Of a DNA stretch of 29,975 nt, positions 2-19,066 are shown piece after piece (within the stretch, counting starts at the first letter, position 1; every line of letters starts with the position of its first letter). The DNA comes from a virus: positions 1 to 29,975 of IMG/VR virus record IMGVR_UViG_3300021364_000119, one strand, 5' to 3'. The notes under the pieces are model-generated. The model was given only the letters and a program-made list of their open reading frames with translations, searched no databases and was not told the origin of the DNA. The position numbers and the translations under genes were made by a program.

Positions 2-544
2 ATCCGAAAAGCACATCTCAAAACAATAGAGCCAGTTGGAAAGAATAAACTCTGGCTTATGCACATTAATATTTTCCCACAATTTGATGTTGACCTTCCT
101 ATCTTTGGTTTGGATATAGTAGCGAACCCCAAAAAGATCTCAGGTTGCTTTTGTGATTATTCACCTACATCTGAAAGATACCATCCCTTTTTAGATAAGT
201 TTAAACTAGAAACAGCTGGTTTGACTTGGACAAGAGCAAGAGAAATGCCAGACTGGGCTCAGGAAATTTTCAGTCCAAATATTGTAGGTGCTGGTTCAAT
301 ACGAGAAGGAGAGGAGACAGACCAACTCTGTCAGATGGCCTTTAATCTTGCTTCCTTTTATTGTATGGAGATGGATAACCCAGTTCATCAAAAAGTAGGT
401 GGGTTGAATACAAGAGATGCTCAAAACAAATATTGTCGTAATCAGAAAATGAATAGAATGCTCCATTCATCAATCCTTGCAATGGGGATATCTGAAGAGC
501 GTAAGAACCAATATGTTGAAGATGTACTCTTTGAAGAAGTATAA
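2..544 (+). CDS. pcyX: Ferredoxin-dependent bilin reductase, PcyX-like (5' truncated)
   Basis: The reading frame is open from the first bases of the window, so the N-terminal part lies outside it. Members of this family reduce biliverdin IX-alpha to phycobilins using electrons from reduced ferredoxin. The block MHINIFP...DLPIFGLDIV...CDYSP matches the family core. The His after the Met at base 59 and the Asp 17 residues later (FGLD) have the spacing of His88 and Asp105 in PcyA. The Asp-His pair is known to be essential in PcyX, which makes phycoerythrobilin. The Glu of the PcyA triad has no clear equivalent at the expected spacing: a Glu lies 11, not 12, residues before the His. The Met at base 59 is internal, because homology continues upstream of it. 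A heme oxygenase gene would be expected nearby but could only lie upstream, outside the window. PcyX rather than PcyA or PebS is an inference. Confidence 0.8.
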   Translation: MRKAHLKTIEPVGKNKLWLMHINIFPQFDVDLPIFGLDIVANPKKISGCFCDYSPTSERYHPFLDKFKLETAGLTWTRAREMPDWAQEIFSPNIVGAGSIREGEETDQLCQMAFNLASFYCMEMDNPVHQKVGGLNTRDAQNKYCRNQKMNRMLHSSILAMGISEERKNQYVEDVLFEEV

Positions 545-1480: not shown

Positions 1481-1723
1481 ATGTCTGTAGTAGCATTAAC
1501 ACCAGATAAAATACATCATGAAATAAGCAAACATATATCCAAGGGAGTTCCCTATATTGATGCTTTGGTTCACTTTGCTGAACAAAACGAAATTGAAATT
1601 GAAACCATTGCACAGATTGTAAAGAAATCTTCTATATTAAAAGAGAAGATTAAAACTGAGGCAGTAGGTTTACGAATGGTAGAAAAAGACGATGAGCCAG
1701 ATATCACAGACCATTGCAAGTGA
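1481..1723 (+). CDS. 33: Late-transcription coactivator gp33-like
   Basis: This 80-residue protein resembles the short gp33 proteins of marine T4-like phages: a pattern like YIDALVHFAEQNEIEIETIA, then a basic stretch (KSSILKEKIKTEA) and a short tail. In T4, gp33 binds the polymerase beta flap and couples the gp55 sigma factor to the sliding clamp so late promoters fire. The ATG at 1481 is chosen over an in-frame ATG at 1451, because a GGGGAAG site lies 8-14 bases before it and the 1451 start would put that site inside the gene. It is followed directly by gp59, overlapping its start by 32 bases; T4 has the same 33-59-32 order. Identification rests on pattern and position, not an alignment. Confidence 0.7.
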   Translation: MSVVALTPDKIHHEISKHISKGVPYIDALVHFAEQNEIEIETIAQIVKKSSILKEKIKTEAVGLRMVEKDDEPDITDHCK

Positions 1724-2294
1724 TAAATCATTCGAAGCGTATATTAAATTTAACGCAATAAAAAGACATTTTACTACAGATAACTACGATTATTTTAAGT
1801 ATAACGGAAAAGTAAGAGCAAACTTTGATACTTTTATCTCAAGGAATGATGCTTACAGTTTCGCTAAACTTGCAAAAAGAGAAGATTACGAGAACTTAAT
1901 TCTTGCTAATATACTCAAGAAGCCCGACATCTGGGTCCGAGAAATTTTGGACGAGGAGTCGGAAGAAAGATATATATTATGGAAGAAGAAAATTGAAGCC
2001 TTAGGCTACAATTTCAAAAGTGAGTTGGGAAAACTCAATGAGGATTACCAACAAAATTTTATATCACGGGATGGCCAACACCCTTATATAATGTCACTGT
2101 ATTTGCAAAAGCAAATCAGTCTTGAAACATTGACCATCTTGGCACATTCTGCAAATATTTTTTCGTATTGGAACGAAAAAGTGGTTGACAAAATTGTAGC
2201 TTGTGATATAATAAGACTTGTTAGAAAATATAAACCTTTTCTAGCATATGATGAAAAGAGGTTCAAGAACATTGTTCGCGAATACTTCTTCTAA
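1692..2294 (+). CDS. 59: Helicase loader gp59
   Basis: The 200-residue product has the size and layout of T4 gp59, which loads gp41 helicase onto gp32-coated single-stranded DNA at forks. Family-like features include an N-terminal stretch with YDYFKYNGKVRA (T4: KYDVIKYN) followed by a helical region rich in F, K and Y, and a C-terminal helical domain. The neighbours support the call: it lies between gp33 and gp32 as in T4, and its partner gp41 is at 4673. The start overlaps gp33. A sigma70 promoter for gp32 lies inside its last 110 bases. Confidence 0.8.
   Translation: MSQISQTIASDKSFEAYIKFNAIKRHFTTDNYDYFKYNGKVRANFDTFISRNDAYSFAKLAKREDYENLILANILKKPDIWVREILDEESEERYILWKKKIEALGYNFKSELGKLNEDYQQNFISRDGQHPYIMSLYLQKQISLETLTILAHSANIFSYWNEKVVDKIVACDIIRLVRKYKPFLAYDEKRFKNIVREYFF
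2185..2212 (+). promoter_or_regulatory. Sigma70 promoter inside gene 59, reading into gp32
   Basis: TTGACA at 2185-2190 and TATAAT at 2207-2212 with a 16-bp spacer and an extended -10 (TGATATAAT). The predicted start, about 2219, falls at the base of the stem at 2220, giving a gp32 leader of about 120 bases. Confidence 0.75.
2220..2263 (+). promoter_or_regulatory. Candidate H-type pseudoknot at 5' end of gp32 mRNA
   Basis: Stem 1 pairs 2220-2228 (GTTAGAAAA) with 2237-2245 (TTTTCTAGC), nine pairs including one G-U, around an 8-base loop. The loop's AACC (2233-2236) can pair with GGTT at 2260-2263, giving stem 2 of 4 bp stacked on stem 1. In T4, a pseudoknot near the 5' end of gene 32 mRNA starts cooperative gp32 binding that represses its own translation. 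The bases also encode the end of gp59. Stem 2 is short and could be chance. Confidence 0.4.
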
Positions 2295-2338: not shown

Positions 2339-3274
2339 ATGGCACTTACAGACTTTTCTTCGCTCAAGAAGAACAGAAAAAATACTCTCGATAAGTTGAA
2401 TTCTCAACTCGAGAAAATCGCAAAACCATCTTACCAAGACCCTAACGAAGGTAAATTTTGGAAACCTACTAGAGATAAAGCTGGTAATGGATTCGCAGTA
2501 ATCCGTTTCTTACCTGCACCTCAAGGTGAAGAAATGCCTTTCGTAAGGATTTGGGACCATGGATTCCAAGGACCTACAGGTCAGTGGTATATCGAAAACT
2601 CATTAACCACTTTGGGACAGGACGACCCTGTTTCTGAGTACAATTCCAAACTCTGGAATTCAGGTATTGAGGCTGATAAGGAACAAGCAAGAAAACAGAA
2701 GCGTAGGCTGAAGTACATTGCTAATATCTATGTTGTGAAAGACTCAGCAAATCCAGAAAACGAAGGCAAAGTATTCATGTACCAATTCGGTAAGAAAATC
2801 TTTGACAAGTTAAATGATTTAATGAATCCTTCATTCGAAGATGAAACTCCTGTCAATCCATTTGATTTATGGGAAGGTGCAAACTTTAGACTGAAAATTC
2901 GTCAGTTCGAAGGTTATCCTAACTATGACAAATCTGAATTTGACCCTGCAACACCTTTATTCGAAGATGATGCAGAGTTGGAGAGAGTATGGAATGAAGA
3001 ACATTCCCTCCAGGAACTACTTGAACCTAAAAACTTCAAGTCTTATGCTGATTTAAAAACCAAACTCTACAGAGTTCTGGATTTATCGTCAGACACAACC
3101 GAACAGGTTGCAATATCACCTGCAGAAGCTGAAGACATTCAGGACGATGATTTGGATTTGAGTAATCTATCTCAATCTGCACCAGAACCTTCTGCACCAG
3201 TTGCTGAAACCCCTGCGGTCAGCACTGATGATGATGACGATCTATCAATCTTTAAAGAGCTTGCTAGAGGCTAA
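2339..3274 (+). CDS. 32: Single-stranded DNA-binding protein gp32
   Basis: The 311-residue product has the gp32 layout: a basic N-terminal segment (SSLKKNRKN) for cooperative binding, a core OB-fold region with FWKPTRDKAGNGFAVIRFLP, WYIEN and ANIYVVKD...NEGKVF, and a strongly acidic C-terminus with runs of D that would contact gp59, UvsX and polymerase. It coats single-stranded DNA in replication and recombination. The T4 zinc ligands are not kept: the T4 ENC and CPVC positions read ENS and PVSE here, while the HGF histidine remains. As I recall, cyanophage gp32 has the same loss. A strong AAGGAG site lies 8 bases before the ATG. Expression is probably self-limited through the leader described at 2220-2325. 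Confidence 0.95.
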   Translation: MALTDFSSLKKNRKNTLDKLNSQLEKIAKPSYQDPNEGKFWKPTRDKAGNGFAVIRFLPAPQGEEMPFVRIWDHGFQGPTGQWYIENSLTTLGQDDPVSEYNSKLWNSGIEADKEQARKQKRRLKYIANIYVVKDSANPENEGKVFMYQFGKKIFDKLNDLMNPSFEDETPVNPFDLWEGANFRLKIRQFEGYPNYDKSEFDPATPLFEDDAELERVWNEEHSLQELLEPKNFKSYADLKTKLYRVLDLSSDTTEQVAISPAEAEDIQDDDLDLSNLSQSAPEPSAPVAETPAVSTDDDDDLSIFKELARG

Positions 3275-3364: not shown

Positions 3365-3649
3365 ATGTCAATAAAACCAGAAACCGTACTTGACTTCGAT
3401 TTTGGCTTTACAGCTATGACCGAAGATGAGTTAACCGTGGTGCAAGAAACTAGAGAGGCTGCAGAAACTGCATCTACCTCAGCTGAAATGGCATCACAAA
3501 AAGCACAACTTTTATATGACGCAATCACGCCACTGTTAAATAACCTTAAGGCGAATCCTGAAAAAGATTATATCTATTGGCCGGACCGTTATGCAAAACT
3601 TGATGCGTTTGCAGATAAATTACATCAAATATTAACTGGAGAATTATAA
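3365..3649 (+). CDS. Conserved marine-phage protein between gp32 and UvsX
   Basis: This 94-residue acidic protein starts after a strong AAGGAG site and ends by overlapping the uvsX ATG (TAATG). The middle (residues 27-60) is helical and Ala-rich. The C-terminal NPEKDYIYWPDRYAKLDAF is a pattern I recall from small unnamed proteins of marine T4-like phages. There is no catalytic motif, signal peptide or membrane segment. Its tight coupling to uvsX and its position after gp32 suggest a helper role in recombination or replication, but nothing in the sequence proves this. Confidence 0.75.
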   Translation: MSIKPETVLDFDFGFTAMTEDELTVVQETREAAETASTSAEMASQKAQLLYDAITPLLNNLKANPEKDYIYWPDRYAKLDAFADKLHQILTGEL

Positions 3650-4713
3650 TGAGTTTACTTGATAAAATGCTCAAAGCAGGTTCAGTAAAATCTTCTAATG
3701 TTCTCTCGAAATCAGCATTCTTCCAAGAAAAAGACCCAATTAAAACCGAACTACCGATTGTCAATATTGCATTCAGTGGTTCGCTTGATGGTGGTTTAAT
3801 TCCTGGATTAACTGTTGTTGCGGGTGAATCAAAGAGTTTTAAAACCTTGTTAGGTCTTTATTGTATGAAGGCTTACCTAAACAAATATAAAGATGGCGTT
3901 GCCCTCTTATATGATTCTGAATATGGTATTACACCAGAATATTTGGAAAGTTATAACATTGACACAGACCGTGTTATCCACATTCCAATCGAAGATGTTG
4001 AACAATTAAAATTTGACATCACTAAAAGATTAAATGAGATTGACAAAGGTGACCGTGTATTTGTTATGATTGACTCAATCGGAAACCTTGCTTCTAGAAA
4101 AGAGGTTGAGGATGCCGAAAATGAGAAAAGTGTTGCCGATATGTCACGTGCGAAACAATTAAAATCGCTCTTCCGTATCGTCACGCCTAAATTGACTGGC
4201 AAGGACATTCCTTGTATTGCGGTCAACCACACTTATAAGGAAATTGGATTATTTCCTAAAAACATTGTATCAGGTGGTACTGGTATCTATTATTCAGCTA
4301 ACCAAATCTTTATTATTTCCAAAGCACAGGAAAAAGAAGGAACAGAGCTTGCTGGATTTAAATTTACTATCAACATTGAAAAATCAAGATATGTAAAAGA
4401 GAAATCAAAACTACCATTCACAGTCTTATATGACTCTGGAATCCAAAAATGGTCAAGTCTATTTGAACTCGCTCTTGAAGGTGGGTGGTTGACAAAGGCC
4501 ACACAAGGATGGTATAATGTAGTGGATAAATCAACAGGTGAAATTCTTGGCTCTAAACGAAGAGCAAAAGACATTGAATCTGATAATGAATTCTTCGAAG
4601 GCTTAATTGCTGACAAAGAGTTCAATGCTTTTGTTGAAAAGAAATATAAACTAACCATGGTGGAGGCAGAAAGTGCTCGAGAAGACGATATTATCGAACC
4701 TGATACTGAATGA
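3649..4713 (+). CDS. uvsX: RecA-like recombinase UvsX
   Basis: The 354-residue product is a RecA-fold ATPase that forms filaments on single-stranded DNA and drives strand exchange and recombination-dependent replication. Walker A is GESKSFKT at residues 59-66, close to the T4 UvsX version. The Walker B-like strand VFVMIDSIGNL and the following KEVEDAENEKSVADMSRAKQLKSL segment also match the family. The C-terminus is acidic. It overlaps the gene before by one base (TAATG) and the gp41 start by 41 bases, so the trio is probably translationally coupled. A sigma70 promoter lies inside it at 4489. Confidence 0.95.
   Translation: MSLLDKMLKAGSVKSSNVLSKSAFFQEKDPIKTELPIVNIAFSGSLDGGLIPGLTVVAGESKSFKTLLGLYCMKAYLNKYKDGVALLYDSEYGITPEYLESYNIDTDRVIHIPIEDVEQLKFDITKRLNEIDKGDRVFVMIDSIGNLASRKEVEDAENEKSVADMSRAKQLKSLFRIVTPKLTGKDIPCIAVNHTYKEIGLFPKNIVSGGTGIYYSANQIFIISKAQEKEGTELAGFKFTINIEKSRYVKEKSKLPFTVLYDSGIQKWSSLFELALEGGWLTKATQGWYNVVDKSTGEILGSKRRAKDIESDNEFFEGLIADKEFNAFVEKKYKLTMVEAESAREDDIIEPDTE
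4489..4518 (+). promoter_or_regulatory. Sigma70 promoter inside uvsX, reading into gp41
   Basis: TTGACA at 4489-4494 and TATAAT at 4513-4518 with an 18-bp spacer and TG before the -10 (TGGTATAAT). The predicted start lies about 150 bases before the gp41 start codon. Confidence 0.65.
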
Positions 4714-6170: not shown

Positions 6171-7631
6171 ATGAAACGCTTCGGCAATTATATTACAGAA
6201 GGCTCAATTCTTAAACCAGACTACGTAGTAGGTCATAAATTTATTTTTAAAGGTAATGGCTTTAAAGAGCTATTAGCTTTAGGTTATAAGAAAGATGATA
6301 TATTCGAAGTTGTATCTGAAAATCCTAATGCATTAGAGGTTGGACCACAGGGTGGTGATTTTGTAAAACACCTTAAAGGTCCTGATGGTCGTATCATTAA
6401 AATCACAGGTGGCTCCGCGTCGGCCAAATCGGGTAATTTCACACACCTACCCGCGGCCGGCTCACCTCCGAAAGCAGCAGAATGGGAAGACCTCATTGTA
6501 TATGCTTATAATAAGATTAATAATCAACCCACAGATGAAGCCACATCTGAAGTAGCATTAAAATACTGGGATTTATATTCTGAAAATGCTACAACAATTG
6601 CTAAAAATTTCAATAAAGCCTTAAAAACGAATCGTATGGTCCAAACTGGTCGCGGAGGCGCGGTTGGTAAAGTAGAATTAGGTCCATTTTGGAAAGAAAC
6701 AGGTGCGGGAGATAAAACTCCAAAAACCGATATCGCATCAGCTGACTTTAAAGAGAAGGTATCTTTGAAAAAGACAGGTGGTTCTCAATTGGCATCAGCT
6801 GAGAAAAAAGAAGGTATCGCCATTGTTAAGTCTGCACTTGCTGAAATGGGTGCTCAACCAGGTTTCGCAAAAGATCTTTTAGACGCAATGGAAGAAAAAA
6901 TGACTAAATTGATTAGTCGTGAAACTACTGGTAGTTTAGAAGACGCGGCCAAGGCTGGTAAAAAGACAGCAGAGGTACTTGATTACCAGAAAAAGGATGC
7001 TCAAAATAAGGAACTTTCAATAATGCTTGAAAGTTATATTAACCAAAATACAGCAGCAAATTCTTTATTCGCAAAACATGTTGTATTTGAAGCTTCTACT
7101 GGTAATAATAAATTCGGTTCTCCATCATCAAAGGCTGCAGCAAATTTATTAGGAAAATTTGACCCATCTGGTTCAGTTGTAATAGAACCAATTAGGAGTG
7201 TAAACGACCCTATTATTTCAAAATACGCTAAAAATGTCAAACCTTATGTTGCATTTAAAAAGGGTGGAGCAAGTCCAGCCTATTCTGCATTCCGATTAGG
7301 TTTATCAAAAACAAATGAAGAATTTGAAACATTTTCTTCCATAGTTCTAAATGAATTAAATAGCCATAAAGAATTCCAATCATTATTAACAGAGGACTTT
7401 TTACAAGAAGGACCTTTTGATATGCTTCGAAAAGCAGGAGTTGCAATTAGAAGTATGGGTAAAAAAGCACTTGGCTTTTTGAAGAGAGTAGTTGATAATA
7501 TTATGGCTAATGTGAAAAAAGTATTTAAAAGACTTGTATCGGCTGGTAAAAGCATGTTTAAACGATTAATGGCATTCTTTGGATTGGATATATCTTCTAC
7601 GAGAGGTATTCCTGGTGGGGTATCTCTATAA
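6171..7631 (+). CDS. Large probable head-internal protein with capsid-targeting N-terminus
   Basis: The 486-residue product is preceded by a late promoter. It starts MKRFGNYITE-GS, matching the T4 capsid targeting pattern (IPIII: MKTYQEFIAE-A). A prohead protease cut after I-T-E would remove ten residues. A second candidate site, F-L-Q-E-G at 410-414, would release a 73-residue C-terminal tail that is basic and amphipathic (VKKVFKRL, FKRLMAFFG). The middle, about 70-400, is soluble and rich in A, K and G, with no catalytic motif I recognise. The stop overlaps the ATG of the kinase gene. A packaged structural or ejected protein is inferred. Confidence 0.75.
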   Translation: MKRFGNYITEGSILKPDYVVGHKFIFKGNGFKELLALGYKKDDIFEVVSENPNALEVGPQGGDFVKHLKGPDGRIIKITGGSASAKSGNFTHLPAAGSPPKAAEWEDLIVYAYNKINNQPTDEATSEVALKYWDLYSENATTIAKNFNKALKTNRMVQTGRGGAVGKVELGPFWKETGAGDKTPKTDIASADFKEKVSLKKTGGSQLASAEKKEGIAIVKSALAEMGAQPGFAKDLLDAMEEKMTKLISRETTGSLEDAAKAGKKTAEVLDYQKKDAQNKELSIMLESYINQNTAANSLFAKHVVFEASTGNNKFGSPSSKAAANLLGKFDPSGSVVIEPIRSVNDPIISKYAKNVKPYVAFKKGGASPAYSAFRLGLSKTNEEFETFSSIVLNELNSHKEFQSLLTEDFLQEGPFDMLRKAGVAIRSMGKKALGFLKRVVDNIMANVKKVFKRLVSAGKSMFKRLMAFFGLDISSTRGIPGGVSL

Positions 7632-9400
7632 TGAAAAGCTTTTTAGAGTATAAAGAGACACCACCTATCGATGTCGAAGAAGGACCAAACGATCCAGCAA
7701 TCTTCAAAGCAATATTTCTTGCGGGTGGTCCAGGCTCTGGAAAAAGTTTTATTTCGGGTAAAACAGGTTTACCTATTCTTGGATTTAAAGTTGTCAATTC
7801 AGATGTTTCGTTTGAAAAGGCAATGAAAGATGCTGCTCTGGAAATGAATCCAGAAAATATCTTTAGTGTCACTGGTCAGGCAATGAGAGATAGAGCCAAG
7901 AAAATGACCGATTTAAAGAAAAAGATCTTATTAAAAGGTCGTCTTGGTTTAGCCATTGATGGTACTGGCCGCGATTATTTAAAACTCAAAAATCAAGCTG
8001 TAGAATTAAAAACATTAGGTTATGATGTGGCCATGATTTTTGTGAATACAGACTTAGATACAGCGTTGGAAAGGAATAGAAATCGTGAAAGAACATTACC
8101 TGAACCGGCTGTTGTTAAAATGTGGAAAGATGTGCAGACAAATATTGGACGCTTCCAAAGTTTATTTAAAGATAATTTCATTGTTGTTGACAATTCTTCT
8201 GGTAGTAATTGGCAGAAAGCTACTACAAAAGGATTTAAATTCGCGCAACGATTTGCAAATAAACCAGTCCGACACGTCAAAGCAATAAAATGGCTTGCAC
8301 AATTCCGAAGTGGTCAAATGGAAGGTTGCATGGACTTGGAGGATATGAAACTTGTAGAAAGTATTATTGATATCCCAAGAAGAACATATGCACCTGCTGT
8401 ATTTGATAACGAAGAATCTGATAATCCAAAAATCAAACCAAGCGTAAAAGAATTAATTAATAAACAATTAAAAGAATTTGAAACAGAATACCCAATCCTT
8501 AAAACATCTTTAATCGGTTCTATCCTCACAAAACGATATAGGAACGATGCTGATTTGGACATTAATGTTTTATTTGATGTACCACCAGAAAAAGCAGAGG
8601 CAGAAAGAGAACGACTCTCTAAAAAGTACTTATCATCAAAGAACCCAGACAATATCCAGGGTAAATTAATCCCAGGAACCGAACATCCAATTAATTATTA
8701 CTTTATTACAAGTAAAGGTATATACGATGAACAAAATGGTAAGGCAGATGCTGTATTTGATATCGAAACAGATACATTTATCAAACGCCCAGAGGATTTT
8801 GTATTCGACCCAGATTTGTATATGCACGAATTTGATAGAAAGGTACAAGAGCTTGACATTATTAAAGGTGAATTAAAACGCGATATTATTGACTATAAAG
8901 AGTTGACAGAGCTTCAGCCAGGTGATATAATAGACTTGCAAGATAAAATTGAGGATAAACTGAAAGAAGTGGAAACTGGAATACAGGATTATGTACGTGT
9001 TGGTGACTTGGTTGACAAGGAACGCCGTGCTGCATTTGATACTGATATGACACCAGAACAGATTAAAACATTCTCTATTAAAAACAGACTACCTAAAAAT
9101 GTCGTTTATAAAATGTTAGAGAAATATCACTACTTAAAATTTTATAAAATGTGTAAAAAGATACTTGATGATGGAAAGGTTGATGATGCTGAAATTACAA
9201 AATTACAAACAGAGGCAACATTATCCGCACCAAATAAAGCAATTATTGATAATATTCTGACCAGAGTTTCTGAAAAATTAGAAAAGGATTTAAAACGAGG
9301 CAATTATAAAGATTTAAATGACATCGCAAAATTGGTAAAGAACAGAGTGGAAAAAGATACCAAACATAAAGGCTTTTCCAGAATGAAGGACCAGAAATGA
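7631..9400 (+). CDS. P-loop kinase fused to nucleotidyltransferase-like domain
   Basis: The 589-residue product combines two enzyme-like domains. Residues 25-215 form a P-loop kinase of the polynucleotide kinase/zeta-toxin type: Walker A GGPGSGKS at 32-39, AIDGTGRDY, and a lid-like ERNRNRERTLPE. Around residues 295-318, SLIGS followed by NDADLDINVLF matches the GS...DxDxD pattern of polymerase-beta-like nucleotidyltransferases. The rest is helical. The start MKSFLEYKE resembles the capsid-targeting motif with E one position early. It overlaps genes on both sides. The next large gene is ligase-like, so a nucleic acid end-repair or modification role is possible, but the substrate is unknown. 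Confidence 0.8.
   Translation: MKSFLEYKETPPIDVEEGPNDPAIFKAIFLAGGPGSGKSFISGKTGLPILGFKVVNSDVSFEKAMKDAALEMNPENIFSVTGQAMRDRAKKMTDLKKKILLKGRLGLAIDGTGRDYLKLKNQAVELKTLGYDVAMIFVNTDLDTALERNRNRERTLPEPAVVKMWKDVQTNIGRFQSLFKDNFIVVDNSSGSNWQKATTKGFKFAQRFANKPVRHVKAIKWLAQFRSGQMEGCMDLEDMKLVESIIDIPRRTYAPAVFDNEESDNPKIKPSVKELINKQLKEFETEYPILKTSLIGSILTKRYRNDADLDINVLFDVPPEKAEAERERLSKKYLSSKNPDNIQGKLIPGTEHPINYYFITSKGIYDEQNGKADAVFDIETDTFIKRPEDFVFDPDLYMHEFDRKVQELDIIKGELKRDIIDYKELTELQPGDIIDLQDKIEDKLKEVETGIQDYVRVGDLVDKERRAAFDTDMTPEQIKTFSIKNRLPKNVVYKMLEKYHYLKFYKMCKKILDDGKVDDAEITKLQTEATLSAPNKAIIDNILTRVSEKLEKDLKRGNYKDLNDIAKLVKNRVEKDTKHKGFSRMKDQK
8903..8931 (+). promoter_or_regulatory. Sigma70 promoter inside the kinase gene
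   Basis: TTGACA at 8903-8908 and TATAAT at 8926-8931 with a 17-bp spacer and an extended -10 (TGATATAAT). It would direct transcription of the genes at 9397 and 9641 independently of the late promoter at 6119. Confidence 0.6.
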
Positions 9401-17641: not shown

Positions 17642-19066
17642 ATGCGAAATTTCTCAAACTTTTTATCTGAAGCGAAAGGCGAAGACTTTCAACTCAGAGT
17701 AATCATGGTCACGACTGTGCCGGATGCAAATATGCCGGCATTTCGTACCGCCTCCCACCTGGAAAAAGTATGTAAGGAACGCAATGTTCCTTTTTTTGGC
17801 TTTGATGTTGAACGTGGTTCTATTGAATGGGCAGATGGTATAGGTTCATATGTCATTCGTAATCGTAAAGACCAAACAGGCTTTAAAGTTGGACCTGGCA
17901 CTCTTTGTATTGTCCGCGGTAATGTAAGACACAATAAAGGTTGGTTTGATAAAGTTTCACAATTTGAGAAATCAGGTTGTACAATGGTCAACGCAAGAGA
18001 AGTTGCTGAATTGTGTAATGACAAATATCGCTGTTATCTCAAATTACAAGATTTTGGTTTAACACAACCAAGAACAGTCTTAATTCCAAACGAAGAAGAT
18101 GATGGTATTCAATCAGCATTAGAAAACCTTGATAGACCATTTCCGATTATTATGAAAACATTGGAAGGTTCAGAAGGTGTGGGGGTTGTTAAAATTGATT
18201 CCGAATCTTCACTTAAAGCTTTTATCCAATTAATCTATAAACAAGATGAAGCTGCAGCCTTATTAATCCAAGAATATATTGAAATGAAAGAAGATTACCG
18301 TGTCCATGTATTGGACGGTAAGGTTATAGCAAGTATGACTCGTGGTAAGGTCAAAGGCGATTTTCGTTCAAATGTCACACAAGGTGGCGATGTAAATGAA
18401 GTCAAACTCACAAAATTAGAAGTGGAACAATGTCTATTGGCAGCAAAAGCTGTAGATGGTAGATGGGTCGCTGTTGATTTTATTCCTTCAAAAGATAGAG
18501 AAAAAGAACCTCCTTTCATATTAGAGGTCAATCACAGCCCTGGCACAAAAGGTATTGAATCCGCAATGGCTGGTTCAAAAGAAAAAGGTGATAAGGAAAA
18601 TCCACTTTTAAATTTACTAATAGACCATTTTTCACAAAAGAAATTCCATTGGTCACATCCAACACAGGTTGGATATATAGAAATGGTGACGATAGAACCA
18701 TTTGGACAATTAACGGCAAAACTTGATACAGGTAATTATAGATACCCAGTACTACATGCTGATAAATATAAAATTGAGGGAAAGAATATTACATTCACAT
18801 CGTTTGGCAAAACTATAAAAACCAAACTGATAGGCGATTACGTTTCTAAAACAATGGTCGGCGAAGATAAAAGACCATTGGTAAAACTCAATTATGAATT
18901 CGCTGGTAAAAAATACGGCGAAATTACTTTTGGTTTAGACGAGCGCGATGGTCTTACAACAGATGTTCTATTAAATAGAAAATTAATGAATAAAATGAAT
19001 GTAATGGTTAACCCAAACAGAAAATATGTCCGTACAACAGCATTCGAGGCAGAGGAAAAAGAATAA
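17642..19066 (+). CDS. RimK-like ATP-grasp ligase fused to retropepsin-like domain
   Basis: The 474-residue product starts MRNFSNFLSEA, a clear capsid targeting pattern. Residues 90-310 form an ATP-grasp domain: PFPIIMKTLEGSEGVGVV with the ATP-binding Lys at 172, LLIQEYIEMKEDYRVHVLDG, and FILEVNHSPGTKG with the metal-binding E295 and N297. RimK-type enzymes add amino acids to protein or peptide ends. Residues 340-474 resemble the RimB/Zn_protease retropepsin-like family, with LDTG at 361-364 as the catalytic Asp motif. The fusion combines an adding and a cutting function. It overlaps the next gene's ATG by one base. Confidence 0.85.
   Translation: MRNFSNFLSEAKGEDFQLRVIMVTTVPDANMPAFRTASHLEKVCKERNVPFFGFDVERGSIEWADGIGSYVIRNRKDQTGFKVGPGTLCIVRGNVRHNKGWFDKVSQFEKSGCTMVNAREVAELCNDKYRCYLKLQDFGLTQPRTVLIPNEEDDGIQSALENLDRPFPIIMKTLEGSEGVGVVKIDSESSLKAFIQLIYKQDEAAALLIQEYIEMKEDYRVHVLDGKVIASMTRGKVKGDFRSNVTQGGDVNEVKLTKLEVEQCLLAAKAVDGRWVAVDFIPSKDREKEPPFILEVNHSPGTKGIESAMAGSKEKGDKENPLLNLLIDHFSQKKFHWSHPTQVGYIEMVTIEPFGQLTAKLDTGNYRYPVLHADKYKIEGKNITFTSFGKTIKTKLIGDYVSKTMVGEDKRPLVKLNYEFAGKKYGEITFGLDERDGLTTDVLLNRKLMNKMNVMVNPNRKYVRTTAFEAEEKE

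Follow-up and report, generated by a model that had tools for sequence, protein, structure and literature searches.

The stretch of phage DNA that we analyzed (the window, a complete IMG/VR record of 29,975 bases) starts inside a gene encoding a ferredoxin-dependent bilin reductase (FDBR) which, as judged from its sequence, belongs to a sister clade of PcyX and not to PcyX proper, and which carries a lysine, Lys55, at the active-site position that is occupied by Glu76 in PcyA and by Asp55 in PcyX. We propose, with a probability of about 0.6, that this gene is the second one of a phage cassette made of a heme oxygenase gene (hemO) and an active FDBR gene of the Lys55 clade, that PEB would be its likeliest product and that the cassette would serve heme/iron turnover or biliverdin disposal.

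An FDBR gene cut by the edge of the window

The following features of the window are considered here:

2..544, + strand: FDBR, truncated on its 5' side where the contig ends, leaving the 180 C-terminal residues of some 228 (PF05996, 60.8 bits; PDB 5owg, E 1.4e-27)
20..22, + strand: codon of Lys55, at the PcyA Glu76 / PcyX Asp55 position according to alignments
62..64, + strand: codon of His69 (PcyA His88), found without exception in the sampled FDBRs of the PcyA/PcyX branch that span this position
113..115, + strand: codon of Asp86 (PcyA Asp105), unchanged throughout the sampled FDBRs of the PcyA/PcyX branch
1692..2294, + strand: gp59-like helicase loader (PF08993, 29 bits, cut-off 25), in the same order in 79/80 relatives
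2339..3274, + strand: gp32-like single-strand DNA-binding protein (PF08804, 159.6 bits)
3649..4713, + strand: UvsX/RecA-like recombinase (PF00154; UvsX annotation of phage matches)
4673..6109, + strand: gp41-like DnaB-type helicase (PF03796; matching phage proteins are annotated as primase/helicase)

The 5' part of the FDBR gene is missing from the record, and a full-length version of 228 residues, 99% identical over the shared part, was read from a related contig (L004:5857-6543). Against the PF05996 profile, for which the cut-off is 31 bits, this full-length copy scored 68.7 bits. Among solved structures, the window ORF matched PcyX_EBK42635 (5owg) best and PcyA second (E 4e-13). An AlphaFold2 model of the FDBR (pLDDT 90.7) resembled both PcyA (Z 25.9, rmsd 2.4) and PcyX 5owg (Z 23.2, rmsd 1.5 over 176 residues, 30% identity) in structure comparisons, and its fold also matched PebA, PebB and HY2. 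Profile, structural match and fold thus bear out the first-pass annotation, made from the letters alone, in calling this gene a bilin reductase. Its assignment of the gene to a T4-like phage, next to replication genes, likewise agrees with the gp59, gp32, UvsX and DnaB-type helicase genes found downstream, while a nucleotide search of window bases 1-24,900 against isolate phages gave no match.

That the third residue of the catalytic triad is changed could mean that the FDBR gene is inactive or decaying. This is very improbable considering that the reading frame is intact over the portion present in the window, that His69, Asp86, His53, Gln196 and Asn199 are all conserved in the FDBR alignment, that the gene is kept together with hemO in nearly all contigs, and that it is under strong purifying selection, with dN/dS values of 0.03-0.05 against relatives in those pairs where dS could be estimated, the remaining pairs being saturated.

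Directly after the FDBR gene lie two short ORFs (744-1006 and 1019-1241) with signal-peptide-like or membrane-like starts; homologues of each were seen in about 20 relatives, and the first of them (744-1006) has no Pfam match.

Lys55 and a sister clade of PcyX

Alignments showed that the Asp-His pair, which the first-pass annotation had described as kept, is indeed present as Asp86 and His69, as it is in PcyX. The same annotation had found the third triad residue not evident at its spacing and had pointed to a Glu one residue off. It was right that the residue is not acidic, yet the position is not vacant, since Lys55 aligns gap-free with Asp55 of PcyX and fills it. The loop that separates the third triad position from the His is 14 residues long in PcyX and in the Lys clade, compared to 12 without their two-residue insertion. 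Glu58 was therefore rejected as a near-aligned third triad residue: it appears to be one off only by a gapless count back from the His, which ignores this insertion, and the Glu of the first-pass annotation is a counting artefact.

In a first alignment of 194 distinct FDBRs, position 55 was Lys in 54/54 window relatives that span it (these were found with search patterns blind to Lys55), Asp in 66/66 Mosig-type PcyX, and Glu in every PcyA spanning it that was sampled from cyanobacteria, Roseomonadaceae and cyanophages. A wider search of IMG/VR, using patterns taken only from the part downstream of Lys55, kept 80 loci among at least 542 stretches encoding relatives; within these 80 loci, all 51 distinct sequences covering position 55 had Lys. 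The combined tally of distinct sequences is 131 with Lys, 70 with Asp and 68 with Glu, with the reservation that 26 of the 131 stem from a biased scan, one of whose patterns contained Lys, the other 105 having been found through patterns blind to Lys. Other residues, among them Asn71 and Leu202, are also fixed in the Lys clade, His203 is nearly fixed, and the counterpart of PcyA Asp220 is Lys or Arg in the window's subclade and Pro in most wider members.

A tree computed with the C20 mixture model placed the close clade of the window in a single group (100/98) that is sister to PcyX, the Lys clade and PcyX being together sister to Roseomonadaceae PcyA, in agreement with the AX clade that was described earlier (PMC10151467). 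In a wider tree from which the residue-55 column was removed, a single branch still set each residue type apart from the others (Lys 83/94, Asp 96/96, Glu 95/95). In all these trees, bootstraps had not settled, so that supports are rough, and the root was set by the choice of outgroup. Once the full gene had been obtained and aligned with PcyX and PcyA, it thus fell within the bilin reductases, on the PcyA/PcyX branch and outside the grouping of PebA, PebB and PebS. We do not assign it to PcyX, as the first-pass annotation did, because both Asp55 and membership of the PcyX clade were tested and neither was found: Lys replaces the PcyX-specific Asp in the window and in all 131 distinct clade members, and the window gene falls in a separate sister clade. 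The Glu76-His88-Asp105 triad of PcyA is incomplete as well, Glu76 being replaced by Lys. Pre-PcyA enzymes, which have Asn or Thr in place of His88 or lack the triad and which belong to globin-associated clusters, differ from the window gene in which the His is present, a comparison made on residues. That the gene is a divergent variant, as had been suspected, is supported by both Lys55 and the separate clade.

One genome scan with a single pattern revealed no Lys-type FDBR in bacterial genomes. Two FDBRs from metagenome-assembled genomes labelled Neomarinimicrobiota (L169) and Halobacteroidaceae (L170) fall inside the phage PcyX group in the tree, so that both contigs may come from phages and have ended up in bacterial bins. 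Another contig, labelled Bifidobacterium breve (L173), has a cyanobacterial-type PcyA and looks like contamination.

A hemO-FDBR cassette in related phages

On the contig that provided the full-length FDBR, a heme oxygenase gene (L004:5237-5857; PF01126, 71.9 bits for a cut-off of 23) lies upstream of the FDBR gene and abuts it. The encoded protein shows homology to human HO-2 and has an HxxAE motif, its proximal His being aligned. Among the 80 close loci, hemO was found within -80 to +60 nt upstream of FDBR in 74, and in the remaining six FDBR starts no more than 170 nt from where the contig ends, so that hemO is immediately upstream in 74/74 close loci having room. The PF01126 profile matched 49/49 close contigs and 49/50 wider contigs (98/99 in all); on the sole exception, G128, some 420 nt lie between the contig end and the start of FDBR, which is too short for a whole hemO. 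The first-pass annotation had left the matter of an upstream heme oxygenase open at the window edge, and the relatives settle it for their own loci: the two-gene cassette is theirs, lies outside what the window shows, and suggests that the window begins inside its second gene, with hemO presumably just to the left. Considering that relatives are abundant (at least 542 IMG/VR stretches) and that hemO occurs on every clade contig reaching far enough upstream, the cassette appears to be stably maintained in these phages.

Several details of the cassette vary. Many divergent members have further genes between hemO and FDBR; in some of them (L374, L492, L500 and L462), these encode a protein of about 235-245 residues without assignment and small basic proteins. 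Long open frames in wider contigs had hinted at a HemO-FDBR fusion, which was rejected as the genes are separate. The GDxSGG motif of HemO reads GDAHGG (Ser to His) in 47/49 distinct close copies and in some copies of the wider clade, no such motif was found in the other two close copies, and Mosig-type copies mostly have GDLSGG. In about 40 relatives, genes for an IscA-type iron-sulfur carrier and a class 3 lipase lie upstream of the cassette on the opposite strand (for example L073:3713-4030 and L073:4404-5186, both on the - strand).

Cassettes of this kind are known: hemO-pcyX/A and alaS in aquatic phages were already published (PMC11480375). The Lys clade, in contrast, may be new: it is absent from the main text of that study, in which marine FDBR copies fall within PcyX, and the main texts of the accessible literature do not mention it, although the PcyX structure paper and supplements may already plot a member. 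The published hemO-pcyA/X-alaS cassettes, including that of phage CB_2, share the adjacent hemO and FDBR with the window clade, whereas alaS lies elsewhere on the genome in several clade members, as a broken cassette. PcyX itself (EBK42635, PDB 5owg, and the copy of pelagiphage Mosig EXVC030M) is also a phage FDBR of the PcyA/PcyX branch with the same fold and an adjacent hemO, which adjoins FDBR in Mosig too, but the Mosig FDBR lies beside neck and tail genes, unlike the window clade FDBR that lies beside gp59-gp32-uvsX-gp41. Cyanobacterial, cyanophage and Roseomonadaceae PcyA have the fold and the His88-Asp105 pair in common with the window clade, from which they differ by their own clade, by Glu76 and by an identity of only about 20-27% (aligned bacterial and cyanophage copies). 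A query with the Roseomonas-type FDBR found no viral relative. PebS of cyanophage P-SSM2 is likewise an FDBR on a T4-like phage, but it belongs with PebA/PebB to another lineage in the tree and its phage has a cyanobacterial host.

Product, host and role

HemO converts heme into biliverdin, iron and CO, and FDBRs protonate and reduce biliverdin with ferredoxin electrons through their Asp-His pair. In the phages described here, HemO would open heme to biliverdin, freeing iron and CO, and the FDBR would then use Asp86-His69 to turn biliverdin into a reduced linear bilin. A search of clade fragments revealed no ferredoxin gene, so that the electrons would be supplied by the host, although the complete phage genomes may still encode a ferredoxin.

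The product would best be guessed to be PEB, as for PcyX (PMC11480375). An absence of Asp55 alone does not predict PEB, because the FDBR of phage CB_2, reported without Asp55, yields PCB (PMC11480375). The Lys clade might make PCB in the same way, like PcyA, but we consider this unlikely: the clade lacks PcyA Glu76, a residue associated with 18-vinyl reduction (PMC10151467), the CB_2 enzyme groups with two bacterial FDBRs (PMC11480375), and CB_2 is a 527-kb phage unlike the clade phages (PMC7674155). As the Glu linked to 18-vinyl reduction is missing, the product is probably something other than PCB.

It is also possible, although PEB seems the better guess, that Lys55 alters the chemistry through a two-electron stop or reduction at a different position, so that 15,16-dihydrobiliverdin, phytochromobilin or some other bilin would be formed instead of PEB. 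The switch from an acid to a fixed base at position 55 is perfectly clade-specific and comes with other fixed changes such as Asn71 and Leu202, and the position of PcyA Asp220 has changed as well. Asp55 of PcyX is reportedly dispensable for catalysis, and if so, position 55 may simply be tolerant. Pre-PcyA enzymes without Glu76 do yield phytochromobilin and PEB (PMC10151467), whereas structure-function rules for FDBRs predict poorly (PMC13193486). With a catalytic pair that is fixed, natural variation at a single active-site position, from Glu (PCB) to Asp (PEB) and Lys, makes the basis of FDBR regiospecificity directly testable.

Our preferred reading, with PEB as the likeliest product, also concerns the host. 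No photosystem reaction-centre gene (PF00124) was detected in the window or in clade contigs of up to 221 kb, while the P-SSM4 control was positive, so that the absence of photosynthesis genes noticed at first extends, for reaction-centre genes, to these clade contigs. In a clade member of 201 kb (G105), where gp23 was identified, capsid and terminase are nearest to those of Sinorhizobium phages (67% and 59%), suggesting that the host is likely a heterotrophic proteobacterium. A closer relative of the window, G043, has a ribonucleotide reductase that is 72% identical to that of Methylophilales phages Melnitz. Overall, the hosts are probably aquatic bacteria other than cyanobacteria.

A gene for 5-aminolevulinate synthase (alaS; TIGR01821, 552.8 bits) was found in G043, G041 and G035, and also in G105, G107, G109 and others, while G106 and G108 lack it; alaS is thus frequent among clade phages, short of universal. 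In G043, it lies about 29 kb downstream of FDBR, so that in the window's phage it would lie past the right end of the window. The alaS and serine hydroxymethyltransferase genes of G043 (L255:3502-4701 and L255:7568-8725) are 3 kb apart; glycine, the product of serine hydroxymethyltransferase, is the substrate of 5-aminolevulinate synthase.

With hemO constant, alaS frequent and photosystem genes absent, the cassette would most likely serve to turn over heme and iron or to dispose of biliverdin in heterotrophic hosts, and light harvesting, the former explanation of phage heme-degradation cassettes, fits phages of heterotrophs badly. Wegner et al. call the purpose of phage cassettes enigmatic and mention iron supply (PMC11480375). 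A more daring and rather doubtful proposal is that the Lys clade forms an undescribed FDBR class in phages of non-photosynthetic bacteria, in which the invariant Lys would steer the reaction to a product besides PEB or PCB as part of a phage-run heme turnover by alaS, hemO and FDBR.

Further minor observations concern the rest of these genomes. The 201-kb relative G105 has 24 predicted tRNA genes in one stretch (L523:9121-17978), and the window has none. The window encodes a zeta-toxin-type P-loop kinase fused with a nucleotidyltransferase domain (7631-9400) and a RimK-like ATP-grasp protein (17642-19066) whose end weakly resembles a putative ATP-dependent zinc protease domain.
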